From Mycobacterium sp. (GTDB lineage Bacteria > Actinomycetota > Actinomycetes > Mycobacteriales > Mycobacteriaceae): a stretch of 36,345 bases of DNA. The translations under genes and the position numbers were made by a program. This document shows, in pieces, positions 2,911-28,434 of the stretch (positions are counted from its first letter, which is position 1; every line of letters starts with the position of its first letter). The stretch spans positions 1 to 36,345 of the forward strand of contig JARLGR010000021.1 of NCBI GenBank assembly GCA_031292665.1, in the 5' to 3' direction. Under the pieces are notes generated by a model. That model ran no database searches. It was not told where the DNA came from and was given only the letters and a program-made list of their open reading frames with translations.

Positions 2911-2945
2911 CGGTGGAGCTGCCGGGAATCGAACCCGGGTCCTAC
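2911..2945. other. Putative attachment site at the 3' end of tmRNA
   Basis: The T-arm and acceptor end of tmRNA (about 2911-2945) is a common target for tyrosine integrases, and a broken integrase starts 90 bp away. The other half-site would be expected to duplicate part of this sequence to the left, but I found no copy in 1-2900. It is either outside the window or lost. The boundaries given are approximate. Confidence 0.35.
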
Positions 2946-3278
2946 GGCATTCCCTCAAGGCTTCTCCGTGCGCAGTCCGTTATGCCTCTACTCGGATCTC
3001 CTGGTCACGCGGACTAGCCAGGATGACGATCCCAGTCGCTGTGCATGTCCCGATGAGTCCCGCGACCGGACTCACCGGTGGATCCCTCTAGCTGACGCCA
3101 GGGTCCGGGCCGAGGGCTTTCCCGGTCTGACGGACTAGCTGTCGCTTAGGCAGCGAGAGCGTAGTCGCGCTGATGTGAATCGGCGCTTATATGGTTGCAA
3201 CGACGCTTACGGTGGTCTCTTGCCTGCACCGGCACGCTTCCCTTGATTCGATGCGCGAAGTCGAAACCGTTCAGCCCC
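2911..3278 (-). ncRNA. ssrA: Transfer-messenger RNA (tmRNA)
   Basis: tmRNA rescues stalled ribosomes together with SmpB, whose gene lies about 1.2 kb upstream on the same strand. The RNA starts GGGGCTGAACGG at 3278 and ends with the T-arm GGTTCGATTCCCGG and acceptor CAGCTCCACC. The 5' GGGGCTG pairs with 3' CAGCTCC, with one G-U pair. The length of 368 nt is normal for mycobacteria. The tag frame (3184-3146) reads ADSHQRDYALAA then TAA, the standard mycobacterial tag. The last three encoded bases read CCG rather than CCA, so the mature 3' end would need trimming and CCA addition, or the base has changed through integration of the neighbouring element. Confidence 0.97.
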
Positions 3279-20373: not shown

Positions 20374-21465
20374 ATGGAATCCTTCATTCACCTGCGAAAA
20401 GGCAGGACACCGCGCCGCCTGCACGCGGACCTCGACGGCCTCAAAGACGACGAACTGGGGCGGGGCGGATTCACGGGCCGGACCGCCAATATGTACCGCC
20501 GCCACGACCCCACCGCCTACCGGGCGGTCGGCCCGCTGCGGCCGATCGACGTGCTGTCCAGCGAGCTGAAGCCCAGCGACGCCACCGACGCCTATGGCGG
20601 GCCGCTGCTGCTGTTCAGCAACGACGACTGCCGCATCTCGCTGAGCCGCCGGACCGAGCCGATGCCATTTTTCACCCGCCACGTCGACGGGGACCTGCTG
20701 TGCTTCGTGCACCGGGGCAGCGGTCTGGCCGAAACCGAGTTCGGGCCGCTGCGCTACCGCGAGGGCGACTGGCTCTACATCCCGAAGGCGTGCACCTGGC
20801 GCCAGGTGCCGGATAGCGAGACGACCCTGTTGATGGTCGAGACCACCGACGAACTTCGCGTCCCGCCCGCCGGAGCGTTGGGCCGGCATTTCCCGTTCGA
20901 CCCGTCGCAGGCCACCATTCCCGAACCCCAGCCAAGCGACGACGATGGGCGCGAGGAATACGAGGTTCGGCTCATCCACGAGGGCGGCCCCACAACGCTG
21001 TTCTACCAACACCATCCGCTCGACGTCGAGGGCTGGCGCGGCGACAACTTCCCCTTCGCCTACAACATCGCCGACTACAACGTGATCACCTCCGACAGCG
21101 TCCACCTGCCGCCGACGGTGCATCTGTTCATGCAGGCCACCGGTGTCTACGTGATGAACTTCCTGCCCCGGCCGGCCGAAACCGTTTCCGGCACCGAGCG
21201 CACACCCTGGTATCACCGCAACGTCGACCTGGACGAGATCGCCTTCTTCCACGGCGGCTCGCTGTACGGCATCCCGATGCCGCCGGGCCTGATCTCGCAC
21301 GCGCCGCAAGGGGTGCACCACGGCGCCCCGGAGAAGGCGCGCGAACGGGCACGCCGCAAGTTCGACGACTACTCCCGGGTCGACTGGCAGGTGATCGCCG
21401 TCGACACCCGCCGAAGGCTGACACCGTCGGCCGAGGTGCTGGCCCACGACCTCGGGCAGCACTGA
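20374..21465 (+). CDS. Homogentisate 1,2-dioxygenase-like cupin
   Basis: The 363-residue protein resembles homogentisate dioxygenase, an Fe(II) enzyme that opens the ring of homogentisate in tyrosine breakdown. The C-terminal cupin half has candidate iron ligands in WYHRNVDLDE (His281, Glu288) and in the HAPQGVHHGAPE segment (His309, His315/316). The N-terminal half is FVHRGSGLAETEFG, then YREGDWLYIPKACTWR, a second cupin barrel. The family is usually 380-440 residues, so this is a short, divergent member. The substrate may not be homogentisate. It is first in a run of nine close genes and lacks the usual maleylacetoacetate isomerase and fumarylacetoacetase neighbours. Confidence 0.8.
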   Translation: MESFIHLRKGRTPRRLHADLDGLKDDELGRGGFTGRTANMYRRHDPTAYRAVGPLRPIDVLSSELKPSDATDAYGGPLLLFSNDDCRISLSRRTEPMPFFTRHVDGDLLCFVHRGSGLAETEFGPLRYREGDWLYIPKACTWRQVPDSETTLLMVETTDELRVPPAGALGRHFPFDPSQATIPEPQPSDDDGREEYEVRLIHEGGPTTLFYQHHPLDVEGWRGDNFPFAYNIADYNVITSDSVHLPPTVHLFMQATGVYVMNFLPRPAETVSGTERTPWYHRNVDLDEIAFFHGGSLYGIPMPPGLISHAPQGVHHGAPEKARERARRKFDDYSRVDWQVIAVDTRRRLTPSAEVLAHDLGQH

Positions 21466-21467
21466 CC

Positions 21468-22655
21468 ATGGCCGCCCGCCGCGAGTACGAACGCATCCCC
21501 TATCTCGTTGCCTTCCAGAATAATTCCGGTGTCCGCGACGTCTACGGCGGCCTAGCCGAAATCACCGTCTTGGAGAGCTACCTGCTCAAGCCGAAGGACA
21601 AGCCGTCGGACACCGTGCTGGTGGTCATGCACCCGATCGGCGGCGGCGCGTACCTGCCGATGATCAACGCCCTGGCCCGCGCCGGCCACCACGTCATCTA
21701 CTGCAACAGCAGGTTCCGCGGGACGGATTCGGCGCTGCTGATGGAGAAGGTGATCGAGGACCTCGGCGAGTGCATCAAGGACGCCAAGAAACGACTGGGC
21801 TACACCAAGGTGGTGCTGGCCGGATGGAGCGGCGGGGGCTCGCTGTCGGTGTTCTACCAGCAACAGGCGCAGCACCCGACCATCACGTCGAGCCCGTGCG
21901 GCGACGGCCCCGACCTGACCGCGCTGGACCTCATCCCCGCGGACGGCATCATGCTCCTGGCCGCGCACATCAGCCGCCACGGCACGCTGACCGAATGGCT
22001 GGACGCGTCGATCCTCGACGAGTCCGACCCCACCAAACGGGATCCCGAGCTGGACCTGTACAACCCCGACAACCCCAACCAGCCGCCCTACACCGAGCAG
22101 TTCCTGGCCACCTACCGGCAGGCCCAGATCGACCGCAACCGCCGGATCACCTCCTGGGTCAAGGACAAACTCGCCGTGTTGAAGGCCTCGGGCGGTCCGG
22201 ACTCAGACGTTGCGGAGTTCTGCTTCGTCGTACACGGCACCATGGCCGACCCCCGGTGGCTGGATCCGACCGTCGATCCGAACGAACGCACCCCGGGATC
22301 CTGCTATCTGGGCGATCCGCAAGTGGTGAACATGAGCCCGGTCGGATTGGCGCGATACTGCACGCTGCGCAGCTGGCTCTCGCAGTGGAGCTACGACGAC
22401 GCCCGCGGCGACGGCGTGGCCTGCGGGCGCGACGTCGCGGTCCCGGCGCTGGTGATCGGTAATCTGGCCGACGACGCCTGCACGCCCAGCCACACGAGAC
22501 GGCTCTTCGGGGCGATCGGGCACCCGGACAAGGAGATGCACGAAATTCCAGGCGCCACACACTATTACGCGGGGCCCGACCAGCGCGACAAGCTACGGCA
22601 GGCCGTCGACCTCGCCACCGACTGGCTGGTCCGGCACGACTTCGCGGCGCCCTGA
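21468..22655 (+). CDS. Alpha/beta hydrolase
   Basis: The 395-residue hydrolase starts two bases after the dioxygenase-like gene. The oxyanion region is MHPIGGG (54-60), the nucleophile elbow GWSGGG (Ser121), the acid probably Asp in NLADDACTPSH, and the base His in GATHYY. A long cap lies between the elbow and the acid. No signal peptide is seen, so it acts in the cytoplasm. Placed next to a ring-cleaving type enzyme, it could hydrolyse a ring-fission product, a lactone or a thioester. The exact reaction is unknown. Confidence 0.88.
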   Translation: MAARREYERIPYLVAFQNNSGVRDVYGGLAEITVLESYLLKPKDKPSDTVLVVMHPIGGGAYLPMINALARAGHHVIYCNSRFRGTDSALLMEKVIEDLGECIKDAKKRLGYTKVVLAGWSGGGSLSVFYQQQAQHPTITSSPCGDGPDLTALDLIPADGIMLLAAHISRHGTLTEWLDASILDESDPTKRDPELDLYNPDNPNQPPYTEQFLATYRQAQIDRNRRITSWVKDKLAVLKASGGPDSDVAEFCFVVHGTMADPRWLDPTVDPNERTPGSCYLGDPQVVNMSPVGLARYCTLRSWLSQWSYDDARGDGVACGRDVAVPALVIGNLADDACTPSHTRRLFGAIGHPDKEMHEIPGATHYYAGPDQRDKLRQAVDLATDWLVRHDFAAP

Positions 22656-22702: not shown

Positions 22703-23911
22703 ATGGCAGTTGCCACCGGACCGTTGGACGGGATCCGGGTGCTCGAGCTGGGCACCCTGATCGCCGGGCCCTTCGCCGGCCGGCTGCTCGCCGACATGGG
22801 CGCCGACGTCATCAAGGTGGAACCCCCCGGCGCGCCGGACCCGTTGCGGACCTGGGGCCAAGCCGAACTCGACGGGCACCATGTCTTCTGGACGGTGCAC
22901 GCACGCAACAAGAGGGCCGTCACGCTAGACCTGCGCCGCCCACGTGGCCGTGAACTCTTCCTCGACCTCGTCGAGAAATCCGACATCGTGGTCGAGAACT
23001 TCCGCCCGGGCACCCTGGAGAAATGGGACCTGGGCTACGACGTCCTCAGCGAACGCAACCCGGGCATCATCCTGGTGCGGGTATCCGGTTACGGTCAGAC
23101 CGGGCCCGAGGCGCACAAGGCGGGGTACGCGTCGGTGGCGGAGGCCGCCAGCGGACTGCGGCACCTCAACGGCTTCCCCGGCGCTCCGCCGCCCCGGCTC
23201 GCGCTCTCCCTCGGCGACAGCCTGGCCGGCATGTTCGGCGCCCAGGGCGCGCTGGCCGCGCTGTACCGCCGCGGCGTCACCGGGCGCGGGCAGGTGGTCG
23301 ACGTCGCGCTGACCGAATCCTGTTTGGCCATTCAGGAATCCACCATCCCCGACTACGACGTCGGCGGCGTCGTGCGTGGGCCGTCGGGCACCCGGCTGGA
23401 GGGCATCGCGCCGTCGAACATCTATCGCAGCGCCGACGGCTCCTGGGTGGTGATCGCCGCCAACCAGGACACCGTGTTCTCCCGGCTGTGCAAGGCGATG
23501 GGCCGCCCGGAACTGGCCACCGACGACCGGTTCGCCACGCACGTCGCCCGCGGCCGTAACCAGGACGAACTCGACAAGATCATCGGCGCGTGGGCCGCGC
23601 AGCGCCAACCCGGCGACATCATCGAAACCCTCAGCGCCGCAGGGGTGATCGCGGGGCCGATCAACACGGTCGCCGAGGTGGTCGAGGATCCACAGCTGCG
23701 GGCCCGCGGCATGCTGGTCGAGCACTACGACGAGCGGCTCGAGCGGACCGTGCTCGGGCCGGGAATCGTTCCGGTGCTGTCGGAATCGCCGGGGAGTGTC
23801 CGCACCGCCGGCCCCGCCCGGCCGGGGCAACACAACGACGAGGTCTACATCGGGCTGCTCGGCAAGACCGCCGAGGAGCTCCAGGAGTTGCGCGCCGAGG
23901 AGGTGCTATGA
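22703..23911 (+). CDS. CaiB/BaiF (class III) CoA-transferase
   Basis: The 402-residue enzyme moves CoA between carboxylates or acyl-CoAs. The N-terminal hallmark is GIRVLELGTLIAGPFAGRLLADMGADVIKVE (start about residue 10). The catalytic aspartate is Asp172 in LGDSLAG, which aligns with the Asp that forms the aspartyl-CoA thioester in formyl-CoA transferase. The ATG has GAGGAG about 6-8 bases upstream. The stop overlaps the next ATG (ATGA). In this operon it probably charges the substrate acid with CoA. Confidence 0.93.
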   Translation: MAVATGPLDGIRVLELGTLIAGPFAGRLLADMGADVIKVEPPGAPDPLRTWGQAELDGHHVFWTVHARNKRAVTLDLRRPRGRELFLDLVEKSDIVVENFRPGTLEKWDLGYDVLSERNPGIILVRVSGYGQTGPEAHKAGYASVAEAASGLRHLNGFPGAPPPRLALSLGDSLAGMFGAQGALAALYRRGVTGRGQVVDVALTESCLAIQESTIPDYDVGGVVRGPSGTRLEGIAPSNIYRSADGSWVVIAANQDTVFSRLCKAMGRPELATDDRFATHVARGRNQDELDKIIGAWAAQRQPGDIIETLSAAGVIAGPINTVAEVVEDPQLRARGMLVEHYDERLERTVLGPGIVPVLSESPGSVRTAGPARPGQHNDEVYIGLLGKTAEELQELRAEEVL

Positions 23912-24804
23912 CGCCCCACGTCGACATTCGCGAAGTGGCGCTGCGTGACGGCCTGCAGATCGAGAAGCCAATCCCGTTGTCGGCCAAGCTGGAACTGTTG
24001 GCCGCGGTGGCCGCCACCGGGGTCCGCGAAGTGGAGGCCACGGCCTTCGTCTCCCCCACCAAGGTGCCGTCGATGGCCGACGCCGCCGAACTCGCCGCCG
24101 AGTTGCACAATTACCCCGACATCGAGTTCTCCGCCCTGGTCGCCAGTCCGAACGGCGCCAAGCGGGCCGTCGCAGCCGGGCTGCGCTCGATTGAGTACGT
24201 GGTGGCCGCCAGCAACGCGTTCAGCATGGCCAACGCCGGGCGGCCCAGCGCCGTGGCCACCGAACAGATCGGCGACATCATCGCCATTGCGCACGACGCG
24301 GACATCACCGTGGAGGTCATCGTGGCCACCGCGTGGGACTGTCCGTTCGACGGGCCCACCCCACCGCAGCGGGTGCTCGACATCGCCGCGGCGGCACGTG
24401 ACCGGGGCGTCGACCGCTTCTCCATCGCCGACACCATCGGCACCGTCACCCCGGGACGGGTGACATCGCTGGTCGCGCAACTGCGCCCAGTGATCGGCGA
24501 CCTGCCCTTGGGCGGGCACTTCCACAACACCCGCGGCGCCGGACTGGCCAGCGCCTACGCCGCGGTCAGCGCCGGGGTCACCCGCCTGGACGCCTCGGTC
24601 GGCGGGCTCGGGGGCTGCCCCTTCGCGCCGGGCGCGACCGGCAACATCGCCACCGAGGACCTGGTGTACCTGCTGCGCGACAGCGGCGTCGACGTCGATG
24701 TCGACCTGGCAACCGCCATCGACGCGGCTCAGGTCGCGAAATCCGTTGTCGGGCATGACCTGCCGGGTGCGCTGTTGCGCGCCGGCGACCGGATCCGTGG
24801 CTGA
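23908..24804 (+). CDS. HMG-CoA lyase-like carbon-carbon lyase
   Basis: The 298-residue protein has the TIM-barrel fold of hydroxymethylglutaryl-CoA lyase. It starts at ATG 23908, inside the stop of the CoA-transferase gene. Catalytic residues are visible: Arg13-Asp14 in ALRDGLQ, the metal ligands His204 and His206 in GGHFHN, and Cys237 in GLGGCPFAPGATGN. HMG-CoA lyase splits 3-hydroxy-3-methylglutaryl-CoA into acetyl-CoA and acetoacetate. Members in catabolic operons often use other 3-hydroxyacyl-CoAs. The usual aspartate after the HxH ligand pair is Asn207 here. It shares an ATGA-type junction with the TetR gene. Confidence 0.9.
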   Translation: MTPHVDIREVALRDGLQIEKPIPLSAKLELLAAVAATGVREVEATAFVSPTKVPSMADAAELAAELHNYPDIEFSALVASPNGAKRAVAAGLRSIEYVVAASNAFSMANAGRPSAVATEQIGDIIAIAHDADITVEVIVATAWDCPFDGPTPPQRVLDIAAAARDRGVDRFSIADTIGTVTPGRVTSLVAQLRPVIGDLPLGGHFHNTRGAGLASAYAAVSAGVTRLDASVGGLGGCPFAPGATGNIATEDLVYLLRDSGVDVDVDLATAIDAAQVAKSVVGHDLPGALLRAGDRIRG

Positions 24805-25427
24805 TGCCGGCCGACAGCCTGACCGCCAAGGGCCGCCAGACCAGGGCGGCCATCGAGCAGGCGGCACGGAAGCTGTTCGCCGAACGAGGCTTTCACGGAA
24901 CCACGCTGGCCGACATCACGACGGCCGCCGGTAAGTCGCCGGCGGCGTTCTACCGCTACTTCGCCGACAAAGAGGACCTGCTGGCCGCGCTCGCGGAGTC
25001 CTTCCTCCACGACGTCGTGGAGCCGTCCGGGCTCAGCCTGCAGCTGCCGAACTCGCCGGATGACGACGCATTCTTCACCTCCGTGGTCAGCGGATACTGG
25101 AACATGTTCAAGCAGAACATCGGCATCATGATCGCCGTCGCGCAGCTCGCCGCCACCCAGCAACGCTTCGCGGCCGTGCAGAACGAATTTCGCCGGTTCG
25201 GCATGGACATCGTGGCCGCGTCGGTGCGCCGCGCCCAGGAGCAGGGCTACGGAACCGAGCTCGACGCCCGACACGTCGCGGCGGCCATCGCGCTGCTGTT
25301 CGAGAATTTCACCACCGTCTTCGTCGGGACCTCAGGTCTCGGTGTGGAGATCGGGGACGATGAAGCCGTTGCGACGTTGTCGACGATCTGGAAGAAGACC
25401 CTGTACGGCGACCTAACGAAATCTTAG
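24804..25427 (+). CDS. TetR-family transcriptional regulator
   Basis: The 207-residue regulator starts at ATG 24804, which overlaps the stop of the lyase gene (TGATG). The HTH is at about residues 10-56: TRAAIEQAARKLFAERGF, then TLADITTAAGKSPAAFYRYF. The C-terminal ligand domain is of the common mycobacterial type with IALLFENFTTVFVGTSG. As it lies inside the operon it is probably its local regulator and responds to a pathway intermediate, perhaps a CoA ester. This is inference. Confidence 0.9.
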   Translation: MPADSLTAKGRQTRAAIEQAARKLFAERGFHGTTLADITTAAGKSPAAFYRYFADKEDLLAALAESFLHDVVEPSGLSLQLPNSPDDDAFFTSVVSGYWNMFKQNIGIMIAVAQLAATQQRFAAVQNEFRRFGMDIVAASVRRAQEQGYGTELDARHVAAAIALLFENFTTVFVGTSGLGVEIGDDEAVATLSTIWKKTLYGDLTKS

Positions 25428-25437
25428 GGAGATAAAC

Positions 25438-26676
25438 GTGGATTTCACACTACCAGAGCACCTTCCGGGCCTGCTCGCCGAGATGGACGCGTTCATCGAG
25501 GCCGAAATCAAGCCACTGGAACGCGAACACATGCAGTATTTCGACAAGCGTCGCGAGCACGCCCGCACCGACTGGGACAACGACGGCATCCCGACGCGCG
25601 AATGGGAGGAGCTGCTCGCCGAGATGCGCCGGCGAGCCGACACGGCGGGCTGGCTGCGCTACGGATTGCCGTCATCCCTGGGCGGCCGCGACGGCACCAA
25701 CGTCGACATGGCCGTCATCCGGGAGCATTTGGCGCACAAGGGTCTTGGCCTGCACAACGACCTGCAGAACGAGTCGTCGATCGTCGGCAACTTCCCGCAG
25801 GTGATCATGACGGAGCGGTTCGGCACCGACCAACAACGGCGGGATTGGTCGGAGGCGCTGATCACCGGGGAACGGTCCATGGCGTTCGGCCTGACCGAAC
25901 CACTGCACGGCTCCGACGCGACCTGGCTGGAAACGCGTGCCGAACCCGACGGTGACGGCTGGGTGATCAACGGCTCCAAGCGGTTCAACACCGGCGTGCA
26001 CCAAGCGACCCATGACCTGATCTTCGCCCGCACCTCCGGTGAGCCGGGGCAGGCCCGGGGCATCACCGCGTTTCTGGTCTCGACCGATGCGCCCGGCTTC
26101 GCCATCCCGTACTACTGGTGGTCGTTCAACATGCCCACCGACCACGCCGAAGTCCAGTTGACCGATGTGCGGGTGCCCGCCGACGCGGTACTCGGCGAGG
26201 TGGACCGAGGCCTGGAGGTCGCGCAGACGTTCCTGCACGAGAACCGGATTCGGCAGGCGGCCAGCAGCCTGGGCGCCGCGCAATACTGTATTGACCGGGC
26301 CGCCGAGTACGCCGGCCGGCGAGTGGTGTTCGGCAAGCCGCTGTCGGTCAACCAGGCCGTGCAATGGCCGCTGGCCGAGCTGCAGACCGAGGCCCAGATG
26401 GTACGGCTGCTGGTGCATTACGCTTCCTGGCATCTGGACCGCAACCACCACATGGAGGTCTCGGACAAGGTGTCGATGGCGAACTACCGGGCCAACCGGC
26501 TGGTCTGCGACGCCGCGGACCGCGCGATGCAGGTCTTCGGCGGCGTCGGTTACAGCCGGCACGAGCCCTTCGAGCACATCTACCGGCACCACCGCCGCTA
26601 CCGGATCACCGAAGGCGCCGAGGAGATCCAGATCCGCCGAGTGGCGCAGCGGCTCTTCAAATTCGGCAAGCAGTGA
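25438..26676 (+). CDS. Acyl-CoA dehydrogenase-family protein, ACAD10/11- or LvaC-like role
   Basis: The 412-residue flavoprotein starts at GTG 25438 (MDFTLPEHLPGLLAEMDAF), with GGGAG 6 bases before. The active domain has MAFGLTEPLHGSDATWLET in the middle part. The C-terminal part reads QVFGGVGYSRHEPFEHIYRHHRRYRITEG, the FAD-binding motif. Its kinase and DUF6285 neighbours overlap it by ATGA/GTGA junctions. Dehydrogenases in such trios, as LvaC in Pseudomonas and the ACAD domain of human ACAD10/11, remove a phosphate from a 4-phosphoacyl-CoA rather than, or besides, oxidising it. A normal dehydrogenase role is the alternative. Confidence 0.88.
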   Translation: MDFTLPEHLPGLLAEMDAFIEAEIKPLEREHMQYFDKRREHARTDWDNDGIPTREWEELLAEMRRRADTAGWLRYGLPSSLGGRDGTNVDMAVIREHLAHKGLGLHNDLQNESSIVGNFPQVIMTERFGTDQQRRDWSEALITGERSMAFGLTEPLHGSDATWLETRAEPDGDGWVINGSKRFNTGVHQATHDLIFARTSGEPGQARGITAFLVSTDAPGFAIPYYWWSFNMPTDHAEVQLTDVRVPADAVLGEVDRGLEVAQTFLHENRIRQAASSLGAAQYCIDRAAEYAGRRVVFGKPLSVNQAVQWPLAELQTEAQMVRLLVHYASWHLDRNHHMEVSDKVSMANYRANRLVCDAADRAMQVFGGVGYSRHEPFEHIYRHHRRYRITEGAEEIQIRRVAQRLFKFGKQ

Positions 26677-27686
26677 CGGTGCAGACAGACTCGGCGCAGT
26701 CGCAGGCAGAACTGGCCCCGAAACTGTCCGCAGTGCTCGGGTCCGCCCTGGGCGCCGACCGCGTGGGCGTCGACAACCTCCGCGTACTCACCGGTGGCGC
26801 CAGCAGGACCACATGGGCGTTCGACGCCGTCACGGGCGAGCAACGCCGATCGCTGATCCTGCGCATCGGCCCACCCGACGACGTGCACGCCGGAATGGAA
26901 CTCGAGGCGCGCTCCCAGGGCGCCGCCGCCGCGGCCGGGGCGCCGGTCCCCCACGTCCTGGTCGCCACCGATTCACCTGGCGCACTGGGCAATCCGTTCC
27001 TCATCTGCGACGAGATCAAGGGCGAGACGATCGTCCGGCGCATCCAGCGTCAGCTCGACGCCGCCGGCGGGCAACGGGCCCGCGCGAGCCTGCTGCGGCA
27101 GTGCGCGGGGGCACTGGCGGCCATCCACCGGGCTGACGCGGGCGACCCCGCCCTGACGAACGAGGACCCACTCGCGCAGTGGCGCGAGCGGCTCGACGCC
27201 ATGAATGACACCACCGCAACCTTCGAATGGGCGTTTCGCTGGCTGGCAGCCCATCGGCCGCATCCGGCAGCGACCGTTCTGGTGCACGGCGACTTCCGGA
27301 TGGGCAACCTCATCGTCGACGGATCCGACCTCGCCGCCGTCCTCGACTGGGAGCTGGTGCACGTCGGCGACCCTCACGAGGACCTCGCCTGGTTCTGCAT
27401 CCGGGCCTGGCGGTTCGGCGCCCCGTCAAGCCTGGGCGCGGGCGGCCTCGGCAGCATCGAAAACTTCCTCCACGCCTACGAGGAAGCCGGCGCGACTAAC
27501 GTCGACCGCGTGGCGTTTCACTGGTGGCTGGTCCTGGCCACGCTGCGCTGGGGTGTCATCTGCCGGTATCAGGCCGAGCGGCATCTGAGCGGCCAGTTCC
27601 GCTCGGTCGAGTTGGCGGCGATCGGCCGGCGGGTCTGCGAGAACGAATGGGACCTGCTCGGCCTGCTCGAGGCGGTCCGCCCGTGA
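26673..27686 (+). CDS. APH-family phosphotransferase, LvaA-like role
   Basis: The 337-residue product starts at GTG 26673, which overlaps the stop of the dehydrogenase. Another GTG lies two codons later. It has the aminoglycoside-phosphotransferase/choline-kinase fold: the nucleotide loop GGASRTTW (41-48), the catalytic loop HGDFRMGNL (205-213, Asp207) and the metal-binding DWE (Asp225). Members next to acyl-CoA dehydrogenases are known to phosphorylate the hydroxyl group of 4-hydroxyacyl-CoAs (LvaA in levulinate breakdown, N-terminal domain of human ACAD10/11). The context here supports that role over antibiotic resistance. Confidence 0.85.
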   Translation: MTVQTDSAQSQAELAPKLSAVLGSALGADRVGVDNLRVLTGGASRTTWAFDAVTGEQRRSLILRIGPPDDVHAGMELEARSQGAAAAAGAPVPHVLVATDSPGALGNPFLICDEIKGETIVRRIQRQLDAAGGQRARASLLRQCAGALAAIHRADAGDPALTNEDPLAQWRERLDAMNDTTATFEWAFRWLAAHRPHPAATVLVHGDFRMGNLIVDGSDLAAVLDWELVHVGDPHEDLAWFCIRAWRFGAPSSLGAGGLGSIENFLHAYEEAGATNVDRVAFHWWLVLATLRWGVICRYQAERHLSGQFRSVELAAIGRRVCENEWDLLGLLEAVRP

Positions 27687-28021
27687 TCGGCGCCTACGGC
27701 CGTCCGCTGGCGGCCGAACTGGTGGGCGCGGTGGCGGAGTTCCTGGAAACCGATGTCCGGCAGGCGACGAGCGGGCACGTTAACTTCCACGCGAGGGTGG
27801 CCGCCAACGCGCTGCGCATCGTCGAGCGCGAACTGCTCGACGAGAGCGAAGCGCAAACCGGGGCCGCACTGGCCGGCCTCGGCTTCGCCGACGAGGAGGA
27901 GCTGGTCGCCGCGATCCGCGCCGGCGAGCTAGACGGGCGCGACGACGAGGTCACCGCCTGCCTGCGCACACTGGTGCGACACCGGCTGGCCGTTGCCCAT
28001 CCCGGATACGACAGCGATTAG
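27683..28021 (+). CDS. DUF6285 small protein, probable partner of the kinase
   Basis: The 112-residue product starts at GTG 27683 within the stop of the kinase gene (GTGA) and ends at TAG 28021. It is mainly helical with conserved-looking GHVNFHARVAANALRIVERE and ending VAHPGYDSD. Proteins of this type regularly follow APH-type kinases in operons with acyl-CoA dehydrogenases. In Pseudomonas levulinate breakdown a small protein of this size, LvaB, is needed for LvaA activity; that LvaB is the same domain is my recollection and not verified. No catalytic residues are evident. Confidence 0.8.
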   Translation: MIGAYGRPLAAELVGAVAEFLETDVRQATSGHVNFHARVAANALRIVERELLDESEAQTGAALAGLGFADEEELVAAIRAGELDGRDDEVTACLRTLVRHRLAVAHPGYDSD

Positions 28022-28032
28022 GAGCAAGTGCG

Positions 28033-28434
28033 ATGCCCGCTGCCAGTGCGGAAACGATTGCCGACGTGGCCGACCGCCTGTTCGCCGCGATCGAGAAGGG
28101 CGATTTCGCGGCGGTCGACCGGATATGGAGTGGCGACATCGCCGTCTGGCGCACCGGCGCGCGCCGCGATGACGACAAGGCACGCGCGCTGCGGGTCATC
28201 GGCTGGTTCCTCACCGCGACCACCGCGCGTCGCTACGAGGTTCTCGACCGCCAACTCTTCGGTGACGCCCACGCGAGCGGCTTTGTCCAGCAGCACATCC
28301 TGAATGCCGCCGGCCATGCCGGCCAATCGATCTCGATGCGGGTCTGCATCGTGATCAGGGTGGCTGCCGACGGCATGATCACCCGGATCGATGAGTACTT
28401 CGATCCCGCCGACATCGCGCCATTGCTCGACTGA
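28033..28434 (+). CDS. SnoaL/NTF2-like protein
   Basis: The 133-residue product has the cone-shaped alpha+beta fold of SnoaL-like proteins: helical start ADVADRLFAAIEKGDFAAVDRIW, then strands with RYEVLDRQLFGDAHASGFV, and the ending ITRIDEYFDPADI, a very common SnoaL signature. The ATG 28033 is preceded by GGAG. Such proteins are isomerases, dehydratases or carriers of small hydrophobic ligands. It is the last gene of the catabolic operon. No specific activity can be given. Confidence 0.85.
   Translation: MPAASAETIADVADRLFAAIEKGDFAAVDRIWSGDIAVWRTGARRDDDKARALRVIGWFLTATTARRYEVLDRQLFGDAHASGFVQQHILNAAGHAGQSISMRVCIVIRVAADGMITRIDEYFDPADIAPLLD

Follow-up and report, generated by a model that had tools for sequence, protein, structure and literature searches.

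The window analysed here, a stretch of 36,345 nt from contig JARLGR010000021.1 of Mycobacterium sp., carries at 25438-28021 on its forward strand a trio of overlapping genes for an acyl-CoA dehydrogenase (ACAD), a kinase of the APH fold and a small protein of the DUF6285 family. A route that breaks down 4-hydroxy acids by way of a phosphorylated acyl-CoA has been established in Pseudomonas, where it serves levulinate, and since 2024-2025 also in mammals. In the lva operon of Pseudomonas, as in the window, the gene for an LvaA-family kinase overlaps a small DUF6285 gene, and a gene for an ACAD-fold protein adjoins them. Judged by sequence, the kinase pair of the window is an actinobacterial branch of LvaAB, and the dehydrogenase next to it belongs to a clade that lacks the LvaC active site.

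The ACAD gene (25438..26676, forward strand, 412 amino acids) has a GTG start preceded six bases upstream by AGGGAG. It is followed by the kinase gene (26673..27686, forward strand, GTG to TGA, 337 amino acids) and the DUF6285 gene (27683..28021, forward strand, GTG to TAG, 112 amino acids, predicted to be all-helical). At both junctions, ACAD-kinase (26673-26676) and kinase-DUF6285 (27683-27686), stop and start overlap in a GTGA. A Pfam scan of the trio returned APH (1.2e-33), DUF6285 (3.6e-26) and the N-terminal, middle and C-terminal ACAD domains (Acyl-CoA_dh_1/M/N), all above the curated cut-offs. The kinase bears the APH signature residues HxD...N (Asp207, Asn212) and D-W-E (Asp225). A sequence-only reading of this DNA had described three overlapping open reading frames (ORFs) with two GTGA junctions and a kinase with HGD Asp207 and DWE Asp225, and all of these are found where it placed them.

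The kinase can be assigned to the LvaA family. It is 33% identical to the LvaA of a plasmid-borne lva operon (L002) and 40% identical to a Thermus kinase, and when the own genome, that from which the window comes, is searched with LvaA, it is the top match at 159 bits, the runner-up reaching 68 bits. In a tree, 23 kinases of DUF6285-type loci, among them LvaA and that of the window, group together with 100/99 support, apart from five other APH proteins of the own genome; the partner gene of one of the loci (L004) was not tested, and the DUF6285 gene of another (L006) lies about 6 kb from the kinase. The match of the window kinase to ACAD11 is weak, at 32 bits. Residue R86 of the ACAD11 kinase was considered as a diagnostic and dropped, since by alignment reading it is absent from both the window kinase and LvaA.

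The second gene of the L002 lva operon is annotated “LvaB, 4-hydroxypentanoyl-CoA kinase subunit”, and its product matches the DUF6285 profile at 85.3 bits (4.8e-24). The window protein scores 92.1 bits against a cut-off of 28.1, and the counterparts from Stutzerimonas (L005) and Thermus (L003) are also well above the cut-off. These matches identify DUF6285, a family of “unknown function” in Pfam, as the LvaB family, and it becomes describable as a family of kinase partners of the LvaB type. According to Rand et al., as reported in PMC6692424, LvaB (12 kDa) co-purified in an LvaA pull-down, and strains lacking lvaA, lvaB or lvaC did not grow on levulinate. The same paper reports no lvaB for the P. 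citronellolis cluster that contains a histidine phosphatase. In the Stutzerimonas lva cluster, the genes for LvaA and a histidine phosphatase flank a DUF6285 gene (L005:7020-7379); given this arrangement, lvaB may have been overlooked in the P. citronellolis cluster.

Kinase and DUF6285 also occur as natural fusions, 14 of which were found among the best 120 of 7,187 kinase homologues. The model of one fusion, P0130, has a mean predicted local distance difference test (pLDDT) score of 88 and a predicted template modelling (pTM) score of 0.88, with a low-confidence linker at residues 332-363. The pTM is not an interface score; because it reaches 0.88 despite two domains and a floppy linker, the model suggests a defined position of the DUF6285 domain relative to the kinase, and docking of the one on the other is predicted. 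Modelled alone, DUF6285 is all-helical (pLDDT 83, pTM 0.59). Comparison of this model with the PDB gave no fold match at E 0.001 or better, and a second look gave middling matches only, which is no demonstration of a new fold.

LvaC and ACAD10/11 are distinguished from other ACADs by a catalytic Asp (D753 in mouse ACAD11) together with R626, H634 and R637 (PMC12440821). In mouse ACAD11, the worst loss of phosphate elimination came from replacing R626, H634 or R637 by Ala or Leu, the effect of R637K was partial, and H597, which lies close to the FAD, mattered less than these three (PMC12440821). The window ACAD was compared with these enzymes in an alignment of 67 ACADs (11 LvaC-type, 9 window-type and 47 others), in which LvaC residues carry L002 numbering. 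Six polar residues, H214, R243, H251, R254, D368 and H374, are fixed in all 11 LvaC-type enzymes and rare in the 47 others; the corresponding residues in all nine window-type enzymes are H236, F265, Q273, S276, E392 and Q398. The window ACAD has FLHENRIRQAAS where LvaC has RLAPARLTHCMR, and Glu392 where LvaC has its catalytic Asp (D368 in L002, D753 in mouse ACAD11). Phe265, Gln273 and Ser276 replace R626, H634 and R637 in 9/9 window-type enzymes, against Arg, His and Arg in 11/11 of the LvaC type. His236 is the one LvaC-specific residue that is shared (9/9 window-type, 11/11 LvaC-type, 0/47 other ACADs), and was matched to ACAD11 H597 (LvaC H214) through its spacing, 29 residues ahead of R626/R243. 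Fixed residues particular to the window clade are Arg272 and, shortly ahead of the catalytic Glu, His384, His385 and Arg387. The N-terminal part of the ACAD, taken alone, found no relatives in the PDB.

In the tree of the 67 ACADs, the window-type and LvaC-type enzymes form two separate clades, each with 100/100 support. The 67 rows are 41 ACADs plus 26 further ORFs of the own genome, short fragments among its 49 matches being omitted; the 41, also used for a tree of their own, came from a different set of 49 rows, of which eight had been set aside as truncated, duplicated or with fused frames. With 41 ACADs, the window type appeared as sister to the LvaC clade (99/96). This support was lost on adding the 26 own-genome sequences, and the sister relation is consequently not claimed.

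Full orthology of the trio with LvaABC, in which the window ACAD would eliminate phosphate exactly as LvaC does, is highly improbable. It draws on the gene neighbourhood, on the shared His236 and on 33-34% identity to LvaC, but none of the four catalytic or phosphate-binding residues (the Asp and the equivalents of R626, H634 and R637) is present, the enzyme falls in a separate clade, and LvaC finds eight closer matches among the other ACADs of the own genome. The window ACAD was rejected as an LvaC both on residues, with no Asp and no Arg/His/Arg, and on the tree; the idea is contradicted already at the residue level. The sequence-only reading, which had proposed an LvaC-LvaA-LvaB-like trio, thus survives in part: the LvaA-like kinase (159 against 68 bits, shared clade) and the kinship of DUF6285 with LvaB (annotated L002 LvaB matching at 4.8e-24) stand, and the LvaC-like dehydrogenase falls. 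The outcome named in that reading as refuting it came about by half, with a dehydrogenase outside the LvaC type but a DUF6285 of the LvaB type. An annotation by gene neighbours only would have gone wrong on the third member of the trio.

Within Mycobacterium, a DUF6285 gene was found in 137/148 genomes sampled, with a second match in 2 of these. Sixty other Mycobacterium DUF6285 loci were read, from 60 of the positive genomes, one of them (L130) being its genome's second copy. The three genes adjoin in 58 of the 60, with the ACAD at 82-93% identity, and given this the grouping is not due to chance. The exceptions are L130, which has kinase and DUF6285 only, and L136, in which the genes are broken into frames. 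In L136 (G089, a small Mycobacterium genome) the whole block from CoA-transferase to SnoaL is split over several frames, through decay or poor sequence. An ATGA or GTGA closes the first ORF of the ACAD-kinase junction in 49/59 loci, and that of the kinase-DUF6285 junction in 55/59, L136 included. Among the 59 loci with an ACAD match, FLHENRIRQAASS is unchanged in 58, the alignment stopping short of the motif in the remaining one, and the catalytic codon reads Glu in 58 and stop in one. The stop at this position, in a single ACAD copy among L077-L136, reflects sequencing error or decay.

Eleven Mycobacterium genomes gave no DUF6285 match, and in these all first-look candidates were scored, for window-type ACAD, kinase and LvaC-type ACAD alike. 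Four of them turned out to have a trio in the order DUF6285-kinase-ACAD, with a window-type ACAD at 63-64% identity and a diverged DUF6285 protein, which a tblastn search with the L177 protein picked up in each of the four (E 6e-6 to 1e-7); the two that were run against Pfam gave 3e-5 and 5.6e-6, slightly below the cut-off. The other seven have neither a window-type ACAD nor the kinase at the thresholds applied. In these 11 exceptional genomes, the window ACAD is all-or-none with the kinase pair.

A wider view came from 296 genomes sampled evenly across the actinobacteria, in which a window-type ACAD was defined by E 1e-110 or better and an LvaC-type ACAD by E 1e-80 or better to L009, an ACAD of the own genome described below. 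DUF6285 was found in 26/296 genomes (25 above the cut-off) and the window-type ACAD in 13/296, all 13 among the 26. The association has a Fisher p of 6e-16, or 1.8e-10 without Mycobacterium, values that ignore relatedness, so that contrasts within a genus weigh more: in one genus ACAD and DUF6285 are both present in G196 and both absent from G378, and a second genus shows the same contrast between G236, which has the two, and G331, which has none. The genes occur in three orders, ACAD-kinase-DUF6285 as in the window, ACAD-DUF6285-kinase (L177) and DUF6285-kinase-ACAD (L183, L245-L248). Kinase and DUF6285 are both present in 17 of the 20 loci read outside Mycobacterium (L164-L183). Across the loci read, the place next to kinase-DUF6285 is taken by an LvaC-type ACAD (L002, L003, L005, L173 and L181; in L006 it adjoins the kinase), by one of the window type, or by neither, and the two types never share it.

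LvaC-type ACADs are distributed differently from the window type. They were found in 117/296 genomes, comprising 25/26 DUF6285-positive and 92/270 DUF6285-negative ones, and in 9 of the 11 exceptional Mycobacterium genomes, five of which are among the seven without the trio. Because so many genomes lacking DUF6285 or the trio have one, LvaC-type ACADs are independent of the kinase pair. The window-type ACAD tracks the kinase pair; LvaC-type ACADs do not.

The reading we prefer, tentatively and at slightly less than even confidence, is that the LvaAB-type kinase phosphorylates a 4-hydroxyacyl-CoA and that the neighbouring dehydrogenase acts on the phosphoacyl-CoA in LvaC's place. From their family membership, the kinase and its DUF6285 partner would phosphorylate the 4-hydroxyl group of an acyl-CoA, and the window ACAD would then take the 4-phosphoacyl-CoA directly. 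Its chemistry would rely on Glu392 and FAD within polar and basic surroundings peculiar to the clade, made up of Arg272, Gln273, Ser276 and His384-His385-Arg387. Either the phosphate would be expelled without net redox, as in LvaC, or the phosphoacyl-CoA would be oxidised first. Direct action is preferred over a separate LvaC because the window ACAD, unlike the LvaC type, depends on the kinase pair. Confidence is held at this level because the Arg/His/Arg site is missing and an LvaC-type gene is always present in the same genomes.

Several observations weigh against direct action. With Phe, Gln and Ser in place of R626, H634 and R637, the window ACAD should bind a 4-phosphate badly in the ACAD11 pose; it lies outside the LvaC clade, and a sister relation is unsupported in the 67-ACAD tree. 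Half of the DUF6285-positive genomes (13/26) have no window-type ACAD at the threshold. In 6 of the 8 ACAD-bearing genomes outside Mycobacterium, the ACAD is unlinked to the pair, being adjacent in two (L177, L183), and the DUF6285 match of L183 is partial, the stretches scanned there containing a stop codon. Beside the non-Mycobacterium pairs that were read, a window-type ACAD stands in two cases, an LvaC-type ACAD in two and none in the rest. The absences in the 296-genome survey are less sure than the presences, because only the best 16 (DUF6285), 6 (window ACAD) and 6 (LvaC-type) first-look candidates per genome were scored. Finally, all 13 genomes with a window-type ACAD also encode an LvaC-type ACAD, which in G395 and G236 lies about 5-6 kb from the window-type gene.

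These last two facts, and the LvaC-type ACADs in nearly all DUF6285-positive genomes, could also reflect a division of labour, which we regard as less likely but as a serious rival: the kinase pair would make the 4-phosphoacyl-CoA, an L009-like enzyme of the LvaC type would eliminate the phosphate, and the window ACAD, with its ordinary catalytic Glu retained, would be an ordinary FAD- and ETF-linked enzyme for a dedicated step before or after. The own genome has the necessary candidates. L009 bears the full LvaC/ACAD11 signature, RLGPGRIHHCMR plus the catalytic Asp, and L010 and L011 have HAMR plus Asp. The independence of LvaC-type enzymes from the kinase pair, in the 92 DUF6285-negative and five trio-less genomes already mentioned, speaks against such a partnership, as does the position of L009 (L074:8891-10123, equal to G000:C90:29896-31119) on another contig, beside genes that by eye are transhydrogenase- and PE/PPE-like; none of the six own-genome kinase matches from the LvaA search falls on that contig. 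Another kinase may serve the L009 type, because a relative is kept in 5/7 trio-less Mycobacterium genomes. By synteny L009 would be the FadE2 locus; the names FadE2, Rv0154c and FadE36 are presumed from M. tuberculosis gene order. Elsewhere in the own genome, L076:5401-10341 (G000:C87) holds two APH-type kinase matches, an SDR-like ORF (by eye) and ACAD L010 (HHAMR plus Asp), possibly a second kinase-dehydrogenase set of this genome, without DUF6285.

If the window-type ACADs do act directly on phosphoacyl-CoA, they may amount to a second, separately built family of phosphoacyl-CoA flavoenzymes, near-core in mycobacteria, so that the logic of kinase plus flavoenzyme arose, or was rebuilt, twice. 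We hold this extension more doubtfully than direct action itself. It would combine a Glu base with a new phosphate-recognition surface, formed by Arg272 and the His-His-Arg-Arg stretch before Glu392.

The setting of the trio offers some hints of the substrate. Five genes precede it, all on the forward strand: a homogentisate-1,2-dioxygenase-like protein (20374..21465; a weak, partial match), an alpha/beta hydrolase (21468..22655), a class III CoA-transferase (22703..23911) and an HMG-CoA-lyase-like enzyme above the NCBIfam PRK05692 cut-off (23908..24804), which together form an upstream module, and a TetR-family regulator (24804..25427) directly 5' of the trio, in a conserved position. All eight genes, from the dioxygenase-like one through DUF6285, lie within the stretch read in 55/60 Mycobacterium loci, and the context of class III CoA-transferase and HMG-CoA-lyase-like enzyme noted in the sequence-only reading is indeed present and conserved across Mycobacterium loci. 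One 618-amino-acid homologue, P0001, has a TetR domain fused to the ACAD; such a fusion is expected since the two genes adjoin, and it is possibly a missed frame. On the 3' side, a SnoaL-like gene (28033..28434, forward strand) follows the trio in most Mycobacterium loci read, and after it come a YceI gene and a response regulator of the Rv3143 family. ORFs further downstream resemble nuo genes by eye, and ARAGORN found a tmRNA gene at 2912-3278 on the reverse strand of the window.

The module and the trio are separable: in G196 the relative of the module's first gene, at 78% identity, lies on another contig, and L082 has the trio without the module. Because of this, we did not build the mechanism on a pathway common to the trio and the dioxygenase/CoA-transferase/lyase module. 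Relatives of the module's first gene occur in 56/296 actinobacterial genomes. In L249 (7937-12357), which has the order DUF6285-kinase-ACAD, a GntP-family permease gene (Pfam) comes after the ACAD in the same orientation, a hint that a small hydroxy acid may be taken up. L250 (8035-12521) has an ORF with a similar start at the permease position, Pfam having been run on L249 only. Two AMP-binding, acyl-CoA-synthetase-like genes stand beside the trio of L177. None of these hints, from the CoA-transferase/lyase module, the GntP permease or the AMP-binding genes, is decisive.

The kinase pair might instead act on a different alcohol, such as a tertiary or ring-derived hydroxyl from the upstream module, in the manner of the 25-hydroxysteroid kinase, with the ACAD taking the product. 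When the kinase-DUF6285 fusion model was compared with the PDB, the structure of that kinase (PDB 9fsg) was among the closest folds, at ranks 2-4; the two share an APH-like fold, and the steroid enzyme differs in its steroid substrates. It is not known to have a DUF6285 partner. The 25-hydroxysteroid kinase serves an ATP-dependent dehydration through a phosphoester, and its phosphate lyase was not known in 2021, according to PMC8449060. We consider this alternative improbable: the module is joined to the trio in the 55 loci just mentioned, but it is separable from it, and by sequence the kinase groups with LvaA, apart from the other APH proteins sampled.

Direct action on a 4-phosphoacyl-CoA, the preferred reading, sets the trio beside known systems that it resembles only in part. 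Compared with the lva operon, the window ACAD has Glu and lacks HCMR and the upstream Arg, and the genes have TetR, CoA-transferase and HMG-CoA-lyase-like neighbours instead; neither an LvaD-type SDR nor an LvaE-type synthetase is among the seven neighbouring window proteins scanned with the trio. Mammalian ACAD10 and ACAD11 likewise couple an APH-type kinase to an ACAD fold, and His236 is by spacing the equivalent of H597, but in the window the genes are separate, a DUF6285 partner is added, and R626/H634/R637 and the catalytic Asp are missing. The pTT27 cluster of Thermus thermophilus HB8 (L003) has the same order, ACAD-kinase-DUF6285, with the kinase 40% identical as noted above; its contents include SDR, MaoC, AMP-binding, ACAD, kinase, DUF6285 and histidine phosphatase genes, and its ACAD, unlike that of the window, has the LvaC signature (THCMR plus Asp).

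In literature searches that returned best matches only, no title described a 4-hydroxy acid phosphorylation route in mycobacteria, and title-level searches on the lva operon in mycobacteria or Rhodococcus, FadE2/Rv0154c, 4-hydroxypentanoyl-CoA kinase and ACAD10/11/LvaC, likewise limited to best matches, gave nothing on the trio. The term DUF6285 was not found in the literature collection searched, and a joint four-term query including FadE36 had no match. Judging by a term search, neither of the ACAD10/11 papers PMC12440821 and PMC11342911 mentions mycobacteria.

In nearly all Mycobacterium loci read, DUF6285 is tied to an LvaA-type kinase and to a dehydrogenase without the known phosphate-expelling residues. 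With the trio one can thus probe sharply how far the reaction depends on the LvaC active site. Mycobacteria that carry it would break down hydroxylated, fatty-acid-like compounds through a probably new version of an established route.

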